Origin: Polaribacter tangerinus
GTDB lineage: Bacteria; Bacteroidota; Bacteroidia; Flavobacteriales; Flavobacteriaceae
Direction: 5' to 3'
Length of the DNA: 64,000 nt
Assembly: GCF_038024095.1 (NCBI RefSeq)
Contig: NZ_CP150668.1
Location: 372,001-436,000, forward strand
The translations under genes were made by a program, and so were the position numbers. The notes under the pieces were generated by a model. It was not told where the DNA came from. It saw nothing but the letters and a program-made list of their open reading frames with translations, and searched no databases. This document shows, piece after piece, positions 19,483-22,699 of this stretch. Every line of letters begins with the position of its first letter. The first letter of the stretch is position 1.

Positions 19483-21030
19483 TTATGAAAACGAATAGCA
19501 AGATCTCTTTATTTTCTCTAATAATGTAGCGGCATTATATGGTTTTCCTACAACTTCTGTAAAACCAACACTTAAATACCTCTCGACGTCTTCTTTAGAT
19601 GTATTGGCTGTTAGCGCTATTATAGGAATCTTTTTGTTTTTTTCTAAAAAATCACTTTTTAAACTAACCAACTCCTCACCTGTAATATTTGGCATATGAA
19701 TATCTAAAAGTAACACATCAAAAACTTCTTTTTGTAGACTATGCAACGCAGATAACCCATCTTTTACCTGAACAAAATCTACCTTTTCTTTCTTCAAAAT
19801 ATGTGCTACTATGGTCTGATTTAAAACATCATCATCGGCTACTAATACCCTTTTACCAGACAAGTTTTTGTTTGAAAAATTATTTTTTTCTATTAAATCA
19901 TGTTGAACTGCATTAGACTCGTTTACTTTTTTAAAGGGAATTTTAAACGTAAAAGTACTACCAACGTGAAGTTTACTTTTTACAGAAATACTACCTCCCA
20001 TTGCGCTTAATAGACGAGAAACTATAGAAAGACCTAAGCCTGCACCACCTAACACTCTATAATCACTACTATTATTTTGTTGATATTCTTCAAAAATTTT
20101 AGTTGCTTGCTCTTCGGTCATACCAGCGCCAGAATCTGTTACATCGAAAACAACTTGCACGCTTTTTGAGGTTTCTGATGCCACTGAAAGAGCAATAGAA
20201 ATACTTCCTTTAGTAGTAAACTTTAATGCGTTAGACAATAAGTTAGAAAAAATCTGATATAATCTTACATCATCACCTAAAACAGTAAAGGTATCTTTGG
20301 GTAAAACTGGTTTATGTAAAACTAAAGAAACTTCTTTGTTAGCATTCTGATAACGAAAATTTTCGATACTGTTTTGAGCAATTTCAATAAGATTAATTGG
20401 GGAGTTTACAAGCTCTAACCTTCCTGCCTCTATTCTAGATAAATCTAAAATATCATTTACAATCACTTTTAAATGCTCACCAGAAATAGAGAGCAAATTG
20501 GTGTATTCTGCAACTTTATCTGTAATTGCCTCTTCAGAAATCATTGCAGCATAGCCTAAAATAACGTTTAATGGATTTCTTATTTCATGACTCATCATGG
20601 CCAAAAATCTAGATTTATCTTCATTTGCTTTATCGGCAATTTCTCTAAGTCTTTTTAACTCTTTGTTTTTTTCTGTAATTGCTCTTTTTAAAAAAAAGAG
20701 ATCATTTCTCTGCTGGTTTAATTGAGAAATATGTTTATATGCAGTGGTTCTATCATGAATTAAAACAGTAACATCCGAATTACTTTTAAATAATTCTACA
20801 GAAACATTATACTCATTATTATTGTAAACAATAAGCATACCTTCTAACAAAATAGAAGTATTTAACTCCAAAGCTTCTAAAGTACCTTCTAAAAAGTCTG
20901 TAACTGAAAATATTGAGTTATTTGGCTTAAAAATGGACTTTAAAAAATTTCCTGCAGAAATCTCAATAATTAATCCATTAAAATTGGTGGTTAATTGTAT
21001 AAATGTATCTTGTATTTTTGCAGGTATCAA
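19483..21030 (-). CDS. hybrid sensor histidine kinase/response regulator
   Basis: 515 residues, no transmembrane segment, so cytoplasmic. An N-terminal PAS-like region (about 1-95) leads through a coiled coil (about 100-140) into HisKA with phospho-acceptor His148 (FLAMMSHEIRNPL). The HATPase domain has N-box SNLLSNALKFT and G-boxes VTDSGAGM and GGAGLGLSIV. A C-terminal receiver domain carries acidic pocket ADDD, phospho-acceptor Asp443 (LLLDIHMP) and Lys in VGKPYN. It is the last gene of a four-gene operon, six bases after the small GTPase gene, which suggests the kinase is controlled by, or reports to, the GTPase. No output domain is present, so a separate partner is expected. Confidence 0.93.
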   Translation of the reverse strand: MIPAKIQDTFIQLTTNFNGLIIEISAGNFLKSIFKPNNSIFSVTDFLEGTLEALELNTSILLEGMLIVYNNNEYNVSVELFKSNSDVTVLIHDRTTAYKHISQLNQQRNDLFFLKRAITEKNKELKRLREIADKANEDKSRFLAMMSHEIRNPLNVILGYAAMISEEAITDKVAEYTNLLSISGEHLKVIVNDILDLSRIEAGRLELVNSPINLIEIAQNSIENFRYQNANKEVSLVLHKPVLPKDTFTVLGDDVRLYQIFSNLLSNALKFTTKGSISIALSVASETSKSVQVVFDVTDSGAGMTEEQATKIFEEYQQNNSSDYRVLGGAGLGLSIVSRLLSAMGGSISVKSKLHVGSTFTFKIPFKKVNESNAVQHDLIEKNNFSNKNLSGKRVLVADDDVLNQTIVAHILKKEKVDFVQVKDGLSALHSLQKEVFDVLLLDIHMPNITGEELVSLKSDFLEKNKKIPIIALTANTSKEDVERYLSVGFTEVVGKPYNAATLLEKIKRSCYSFS

Positions 21031-21036
21031 TTGGTA

Positions 21037-21522
21037 TTATTTTAGGGCTTGGGAAACCAGTTTTATAAAAGCATCTTCTACATTTTCATCTTCTTTAGCA
21101 CTTGTTAATAAATCAATTTTTACAGAAACTAAATTTTGTAAATTTTCTATTTCCACAGAATTAAGTAGGTCTTTTTTATTTCCTACAACTGTTACTTCTG
21201 ATAAGCCAGAAAGTTCTTTAACAGTGTTTATATAAGCGGTAACATTCTCATAGGTTTCTTGCCTACTTGCATCAAAAACAAACATAGCGGCACTAGCTCC
21301 TAAAAAATAAGCTTTTGGCACTTTTTCGTTACCACTTGTTCCCGCAACATCCCAAATTAGTAATTTTATAGATTGATTCTTATAATTTACAATTTTAGAA
21401 CTAACGCGAACGCCTATAGTACTTATATAATCTTCTGAAAACTCATTTAACACAAACCTTCTTATAAGAGAAGTTTTTCCAACACCAAAATTACCAACCA
21501 ATAAAACTTTTTTTGCAAGCAT
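21037..21522 (-). CDS. Ras/Rab-like small GTPase
   Basis: 161 residues, the minimal Ras-superfamily G domain. All nucleotide-binding motifs are visible: G1 GNFGVGKTS (about 8-16), G2 Thr in DYISTIGV, G3 WDVAG, G4 GNKKD and G5 TSAKEDENVEDAF. The glutamine that usually follows the G3 glycine in Ras/Rab is absent (AGTSGNEK), so intrinsic hydrolysis may be low and a partner may be needed. No C-terminal Cys prenylation box. One base separates its start from the stop of the upstream partner gene, and six bases its stop from the kinase gene: a tight signalling operon. Confidence 0.92.
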   Translation of the reverse strand: MLAKKVLLVGNFGVGKTSLIRRFVLNEFSEDYISTIGVRVSSKIVNYKNQSIKLLIWDVAGTSGNEKVPKAYFLGASAAMFVFDASRQETYENVTAYINTVKELSGLSEVTVVGNKKDLLNSVEIENLQNLVSVKIDLLTSAKEDENVEDAFIKLVSQALK

Positions 21523-21523
21523 T

Positions 21524-22330
21524 TTAATCTATAAGGTGTTTCTGAATTAATTTACCTAATTTGTCTTCATCTGATAAAAAAGAACGGTCTCTCAAAATTA
21601 TTTCAGCTAAATCATTCACATTATCTGTCAACTCTTCTTTAAAATCGATATTGAGAACACCTGATGTTGCAATTGCTATATATATTGATTGGAAGTTTTT
21701 TATGGTTAATTGAAAACTATCAAACTTTATATCTTCTAAGTTTTGATTTTCTTTAGAAAAAGCATCTTCTGCAAAAGATTTAATAGCAGTTAGCATTCCA
21801 GAAATCATATCTTTATCTGCAACATTTCCTCTGGAGTAACTACCAGAAAGTAAACCAGAATTTTTTTCTATCACAAAAACCTCCTCTATTACAGGCTCAA
21901 AAACGTCTTGCAAAATAATTTCTGCGTCAGATTTTTCTCTTTTAAAATATCTCTTTATTATTTCTTGTAACGAAAACTTTTCTTTTACTGTAGCATTAAT
22001 TTTCTCTGTAAGTTTGGTTATTTCACTTACAATAGCTTTTTTAACCAACTTACCCATTATTGGATACAAGGCCTCTACAACTTCGTCTTTAGAGTCTCTA
22101 ATTTGAACTTTAATTGTTTGAGTAATAGTGTCTCCAAAATATTCTGGAAATTTATTACGAAGATCTTCTATTTTTTCATCTACTAGTGGTGAAACACTTT
22201 TGTGTAGTTGCTCTTTTTTGATAATTTCTTCGCTAAGAGCAGAAAATTTTTCTCTATCATCTTCTAATAAAAGTTCTCTGAGCAACTCAAAACGATTGTC
22301 TTTATTGTTATCTACAGTTTCCTTTCCCAT
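21524..22330 (-). CDS. conserved GTPase-operon protein with a roadblock-like C-terminal segment
   Basis: 268 residues, soluble, highly charged. The N-terminal ~110 residues are predicted helical/coiled coil (RFELLRELLLEDDREKFSAL, then DEKIEDLRNKFPEYFGD). The C-terminal half contains DKDMISGMLTAIKSFAEDAF followed by a beta-rich stretch (KFDSFQLTIKNFQSIYIAIATSG). From memory, the same segment precedes OmpA domains in some cyanobacterial and Bacteroidota proteins. It recalls roadblock/longin-type GTPase-partner folds in layout (helix, then paired strands), but that is inference. Its ATG follows the upstream gene's stop with no gap and its own stop is one base from the GTPase start, so a physical role with the GTPase is likely. 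Confidence 0.75.
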   Translation of the reverse strand: MGKETVDNNKDNRFELLRELLLEDDREKFSALSEEIIKKEQLHKSVSPLVDEKIEDLRNKFPEYFGDTITQTIKVQIRDSKDEVVEALYPIMGKLVKKAIVSEITKLTEKINATVKEKFSLQEIIKRYFKREKSDAEIILQDVFEPVIEEVFVIEKNSGLLSGSYSRGNVADKDMISGMLTAIKSFAEDAFSKENQNLEDIKFDSFQLTIKNFQSIYIAIATSGVLNIDFKEELTDNVNDLAEIILRDRSFLSDEDKLGKLIQKHLID

Positions 22331-22699
22331 TTATTCTTGCAGCATCAAAGCTATTTTCTCTAATGCTTTTCCTAGTTTTCTTCTGTCGGCTTTTTCATCA
22401 TCTAAATCTGCAAGTTTCTTATCTAACTCTTCATTTAGGTCTTGAAACTTATGATCCATTAAACTTTCTAAATCTGCAATTTTATGCTCGAGACTGCTTA
22501 CAGCTTCTGCTAAATTACTTTGTGTAGCTTGCTCTAACTTTTTAATTTTATCGTAAACATCTGCAAATTAAGAATCGTATTGCTGTATGTTTTCCCCGAA
22601 TATTAAGTCTCTAACTGCAGCAATTCTGCTATCTATTTGTTGGGGAGTTTCTGTAATTTTTTGAGCCTCTAAATTACTTTTGTCAATTGTTTTTTTCAT
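22331..22699 (-). pseudogene. coiled-coil protein gene interrupted by one in-frame stop (codon 44)
   Basis: Reading the minus strand from the ATG at 22699 gives one continuous frame of 123 codons ending in TAA at 22331-22333, immediately before the ATG of the next gene. The only interruption is TAA at 22568-22570 (codon 44), in the context NIQQYDS-stop-FADVYDKIKKLEQ. Both halves have the same helical, coiled-coil character (part 2: LEHKIADLESLMDHKFQDLN, then ELDKKLADLDDEKADRRKL). A single G-to-T change from GAA would explain the stop. No frameshift is needed. It may be a real nonsense mutation, a sequencing error or, less likely, a site of recoding. Sits first in the GTPase/kinase operon. Confidence 0.8.

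Follow-up and report, generated by a model that had tools for sequence, protein, structure and literature searches.

What regulates a Ras-like GTPase that lacks the usual catalytic glutamine, and do the genes around it form a system of a new kind? Both questions are raised by four adjacent minus-strand genes in a 64,000-nucleotide stretch (hereafter the window; contig NZ_CP150668.1, positions 372,001 to 436,000) of the closed, 2.69-Mb genome of Polaribacter tangerinus (G000). They encode, in order, a coiled-coil protein (22699-22331), a 268-amino-acid protein whose closest matches bearing a source name are from Polaribacter (22330-21524), a Rup (Ras/Rab-like) small GTPase of 161 amino acids (21522-21037), and a soluble hybrid histidine kinase of 515 amino acids that begins at a TTG codon (21030-19483). 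The first-pass annotation of this DNA had read the four as one tight operon; the gaps of 0, 1, and 6 bases and three intact open reading frames agree with this, but the coiled-coil frame carries an in-frame TAA, which that annotation had overlooked.

The G1 to G5 motifs of the GTPase are intact, and G3 reads WDVAGT (residues 57-62), with threonine rather than glutamine after DxxG, as had been noticed at first sight. Glutamine is missing at this position from all 39 GTPases compared (threonine in 28, glutamate in 7, serine in 2, aspartate and glycine in 1 each). A library search places the protein in the Ras/Rab family, and its matches among PDB sequences (the best 60 of 382) are Rab-type proteins. 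Absence of the G3 glutamine also characterizes the Group 1 Rup GTPases, found in Bacteroidetes among other taxa (Wuichet and Søgaard-Andersen 2014; PMC4316618). According to the portion of that paper available, these GTPases are encoded beside a coiled-coil protein and a protein with a conserved domain of unknown function, often followed by a transmembrane (TM) helix and OmpA, together with an output module, usually a histidine kinase or a diguanylate cyclase/phosphodiesterase; this module carries in its N-terminal region an invariant glutamine, which might compensate for the one missing from the GTPase. Judged by these shared features, the window operon is a Group 1 Rup system in a soluble flavobacterial form. 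The earlier suggestion of an undescribed system does not survive this comparison, the four-gene neighborhood, missing glutamine, OmpA-linked partner, and kinase output having all been reported in 2014 in the part of PMC4316618 available. We found no experimental study of a Group 1 Rup system in the open-access literature.

In the same survey, no partner of the MglB type was recorded for the Rup family, and the domain of one conserved component was of no known type (PMC4316618, available portion). In our analysis, this domain appears to belong to the longin/roadblock superfamily. Structure prediction for the 268-amino-acid protein gives long helices at approximately residues 10-119 and then a longin-type domain (residues 145-268; 21527-21898, minus strand), modeled with the element order b-b-a-b-b-b-a-a, which in fold comparison matches solved longin/roadblock members. 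Profile comparison against a roadblock alignment supports the same placing; that alignment holds 29 of 34 loci (L055-L088, leaving out L069, L071, L072, L073, and L084) and includes L058, which lies below the family cut-off. The larger domain alignment excludes rows of 100 residues or fewer. A roadblock/longin-type domain, first proposed from the pattern of a helix and paired strands, is supported by structure prediction and profile comparison. The model has two helices after the last strand (228-247 and 255-267), and in the fold alignment longin rows extend to residues 265-268 whereas roadblock rows end at 249-253, a possibly longin-like feature for which sequence profiles of true longins give no confirmation. 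PF03259 (Roadblock/LC7) has no match in the window protein and is absent among the relatives' families listed (the first 25 of 79 in one set, all 13 in another). Searches of Pfam and NCBIfam with the 268-amino-acid protein returned sub-threshold matches only.

Longin/roadblock domains in bacteria are not new as such, because a table in PMC4917890, as far as that source was available, lists "Longin/Roadblock" as present in Bacteria. The word "longin" occurs 0 times in the available text of PMC4316618, and we found no longin assignment of the Rup partner in the open-access literature, so the fold assignment appears to be new, with the proviso that one may exist elsewhere.

The nature of the fold matches suggests one alternative to the mechanism that we favor below. 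The longin protein could be a guanine nucleotide exchange factor (GEF) like TRAPP, Mon1-Ccz1, and Fuzzy-Inturned, loading the GTPase according to the state of the envelope, with the kinase as effector only. The best fold matches include longin subunits of Rab GEFs, the sub-cut-off Pfam longin hints in relatives are to the FUZ/MON1/HPS1 first longin (3 of 21, best E 0.011) and to INTU/CCZ1/HPS4 (1 of 21), and the GTPase itself resembles Rab-type proteins. The longin domains of AP sigma, VAMP7, and Sec22b, which are not from GEFs, fit about equally well, however, and those Pfam matches lie below cut-off; an exchange function would moreover be compatible with the favored mechanism. We regard this alternative as possible but rather doubtful. 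The VIA lists do not speak for the absence of other folds. Searched against PDB sequences, the domain profile places TRAPP Bet5 (E 1.2) fourth among six weak matches, and the full-length profile finds its matches via the OmpA tail (best 60 of 79).

This tail is seen in more distant homologs. Homologs of the 268-amino-acid protein are annotated as "cell envelope biogenesis protein OmpA"; in 12 distant loci they are longer (589-636 amino acids) with a hydrophobic segment near residues 300-360. OmpA (PF00691) is annotated in most database homologs, including one with 99% identity to the L050 protein. It is also found in 29 of 85 alignment rows, where loci end ahead of the tail. The TM segment and OmpA domain suggest envelope sensing or positioning in those lineages, in which the longin protein is probably tethered to the inner membrane and the cell wall. 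The window protein has neither the hydrophobic segment nor the OmpA tail, and no candidate membrane helix was found in any of the four proteins (top 19-residue mean hydropathy 1.52), the kinase included, which had been described as soluble from the outset. Some other means of control would be needed for the soluble form in Polaribacter.

The association of the longin protein with the GTPase is consistent across genomes. Of the 39 related genomes compared, 11 encode the two together, and neither is found alone at the cut-offs used (E ≤1e-3 for the 268-amino-acid protein, E ≤1e-15 for the GTPase). The order coiled-coil protein, 268-amino-acid protein, GTPase, kinase recurs in 26 of 26 named loci, nearly all from Polaribacter (the L020 record ends within the kinase), and again in three more distant loci (L039, L040, and L053). 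Chance linkage, the outcome that would have undone the functional link first proposed, is rejected by this co-occurrence and conserved gene order. A phage origin is likewise unsupported, the 268-amino-acid protein having no match in the phage collection.

In a sample of 395 genomes across the phylum, 15, including the window genome, have a protein of the 268-amino-acid type; one match in this survey, in G332, is weak (E 4e-4, one stop). In the 12 most distant loci (L041-L052, from 11 genomes), a coiled-coil gene is adjacent in 11 and the GTPase lies within the stretch in 9. The GTPase is on the strand opposite to the longin gene in four of these nine (L043, L047, L048, and L049), and in three loci of one genus (L044, L045, and L052) the longin-OmpA and coiled-coil genes stand apart from the GTPase, which is encoded elsewhere in all three.

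The missing glutamine turns attention to the kinase. It comprises a PAS-like N-terminus, HisKA (His148), HATPase_c, and a receiver (Asp443), the phosphorylation sites being assigned by motif. The N-terminus is modeled with high confidence (pLDDT, the predicted local distance difference test score, 90.9) and shows the PAS-like domain (residues 8-94; 20749-21009, minus strand), from which a long helix (residues 95-143) leads away; Gln106 lies on this helix (codon at 20713-20715, minus strand). Gln106 is the sole invariant position of the N-terminal regions in all 39 output modules (a smaller alignment, of 29 of the 39, has it in every row), and we equate it with the invariant glutamine of PMC4316618 from the description in the available text. 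Ten of the 39 modules, from relatives, were scanned for their domains: three are hybrid kinases (L039, L040 with an Hpt domain, and L053), four are plain kinases (L043, L047, L049, and L050), and three are PAS plus sigma-54 activators with a Fis-type helix-turn-helix (L041, L042, and L046), which carry the same invariant glutamine. "Sigma-54" does not occur in the available text of PMC4316618. The recurrence of one PAS-helix-glutamine unit across differing outputs looks like a common input with an exchangeable output. In a separate observation, made by eye from translations, L043, L049, L050, and L051 have an extra gene near the GTPase and short kinase, its N-terminus resembling the receiver of a response regulator.

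We think it somewhat more likely than not that the longin-regulated GTPase docks on the PAS-linked helix of the kinase, where Gln106 acts in trans and couples GTP hydrolysis to the phosphorelay. The longin and coiled-coil proteins would form a platform or scaffold for the GTPase; the longin protein would bind the GTPase as roadblock and longin domains do and would control its nucleotide state. GTP-bound GTPase would then dock on the PAS domain and signaling helix, with Gln106 completing its active site, so that the effector would double as its own GTPase-activating protein (GAP); a glutamine in trans was already proposed by the 2014 authors (PMC4316618, available portion). Docking or hydrolysis would shift the helix and switch autophosphorylation and transfer to the receiver, from which the phosphate would pass to some Hpt protein or regulator. 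In this scheme the longin domain may serve as GEF, GAP, or scaffold, and its control could run in either direction. Nothing encountered pointed to the gliding or polarity control first suggested as a role, though no test was aimed at it.

The conservation data bear on a different division of labor, in which the GAP would be the longin domain, in the manner of MglB toward MglA, supplying the catalytic groups or bringing them into position, and Gln106 would only keep the signaling helix in register. Every Arg, Lys, Gln, and Asn of the domain stays below 80% conservation (85 rows); the well-kept Arg127 (80 of 85 rows) lies directly before it. MglB, moreover, works by positioning the glutamine and arginine of MglA itself (PMC4316618, available portion), and the window GTPase has no such glutamine. 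Gln106, for its part, is kept across both kinase and sigma-54 outputs. The parallel with MglB notwithstanding, we consider a GAP role for the longin domain unlikely.

Several observations weigh against the trans-glutamine mechanism and the fold assignment beneath it. The longin model is moderately confident (mean pLDDT 68, five models ranging from 68 to 53, predicted template modeling score 0.42), and residues 171-210, covering the first helix and third strand, average pLDDT 44-60. No Pfam longin or roadblock match attains cut-off and the window domain has none; in one relative, Staphylokinase, an unrelated family (E 0.00085), outscores every longin match. Among the 39 output modules, 27 (from the 26 named loci and the window locus) are close relatives within Flavobacteriia, so that the set is not one of independent cases, and the role of Gln106 could be structural. 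Finally, the coiled-coil gene is broken, and the system may be incomplete in the window genome.

The break is a TAA in place of codon 44 (22570-22568), with the coiled-coil frame open before and after it. The gene is uninterrupted in 10 relatives and in the 26 named loci (two overlapping sets), and the stop is unique to the window genome among relatives in which the gene was found. A broken gene beside three intact ones points either to a recent loss or to an error in sequencing; no same-species copy was found, the matches listed (120 of 197) having at most 84% identity. One reading sees the whole operon in decay in this lineage, with its coiled-coil gene already lost and the rest to follow, and genome size lends it some color: within the genus, the system is present in 1 of 11 genomes of 2.9 Mb or less (the window genome) versus 9 of 13 larger ones (one of the larger genomes is 67% complete, and two of the small ones 71% and 84%). 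The other three genes are nevertheless intact with their motifs, the coiled-coil frame has no damage beyond the stop, which may itself be a sequencing error, and the frame is no more diverged from same-genus relatives (67-81% identity) than is the 268-amino-acid protein (66-77%). General decay thus strikes us as rather improbable.

A loosely defined pattern, [LIVM][RK]x[LI][LI][FLMT][GLTA], recurs near the N-termini of both the coiled-coil and the longin proteins, in 40 of 40 coiled-coil proteins and 29 of 42 longin proteins (L012-L053), and in the window within 22699-22600 and 22330-22240, respectively. The pattern was picked after inspecting the sequences, with no control set; it is perhaps a common docking site.

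The putative -7 box placed ahead of the operon by the first-pass annotation is present. TATATTTG lies at 22750-22743 on the minus strand, 43 bases 5' of the coiled-coil gene; of the 26 named relatives, 23 have the string 110 bases or less upstream of that gene (a raw count, without a chance baseline). We call it a -7-type promoter box on the TAnnTTTG pattern of Bacteroidota. No TTG was found 17-21 bases upstream of the box at the window locus. The TTG start of the kinase is retained in eight of nine same-genus relatives and is ATG in the remaining one.

The gene set itself is ordinary, a further case of the Group 1 Rup systems predicted in 2014; what appears to be new and general is the predicted longin/roadblock fold of the partner. 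If correct, it would give the Rup family the partner thought missing, in line with other small GTPases, and would make the pairing of a Rab-like GTPase with a longin protein open to experiment in bacteria, while the idea of a glutamine in trans reduces to a simple mutational question at Gln106. More tentatively, bacteria might hold a Rab-like GTPase and a longin regulator as an ancient co-encoded pair, with the output enzyme supplying the glutamine and each effector serving as its own GAP, a counterpart and perhaps a forerunner of the eukaryotic Rab/longin-GEF modules.

How does the locus stand beside known systems? With the Group 1 Rup systems it shares the four components, the GTPase without the G3 glutamine, the invariant output-module glutamine, and the histidine kinase output; it differs in that the partner has no TM/OmpA tail (which the "often" of the 2014 paper permits), the coiled-coil gene is interrupted, and we place the partner's domain of unknown function in the longin/roadblock superfamily. 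MglA/MglB likewise sets a small GTPase beside a roadblock-superfamily partner linked to phosphotransfer signaling, but MglA keeps its catalytic glutamine (PMC4316618, available portion), whereas the window GTPase is Rup (Rab-like), and the window partner follows a longin-type order (its model ends in a pair of helices) and begins with a long helical region. Membership in MglA/MglB was not adopted, there being no Robl_LC7 match and no glutamine in G3. The actinobacterial conservon (CvnA-D), an analogy drawn by the 2014 authors in the same available text, also joins a histidine kinase, a roadblock protein, and a GTPase with one more protein in a single operon, but there the GTPase belongs to the MglA family, the kinase sits in the membrane, and the roadblock protein is a homolog of MglB, subfamilies different from those of the window. 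The longin-based Rab GEFs (TRAPP, Mon1-Ccz1, and Fuzzy-Inturned) are eukaryotic and heteromeric, and what they have in common with the window locus is a longin domain together with a Rab-type GTPase, a likeness at the level of fold accompanied by weak sequence hints.
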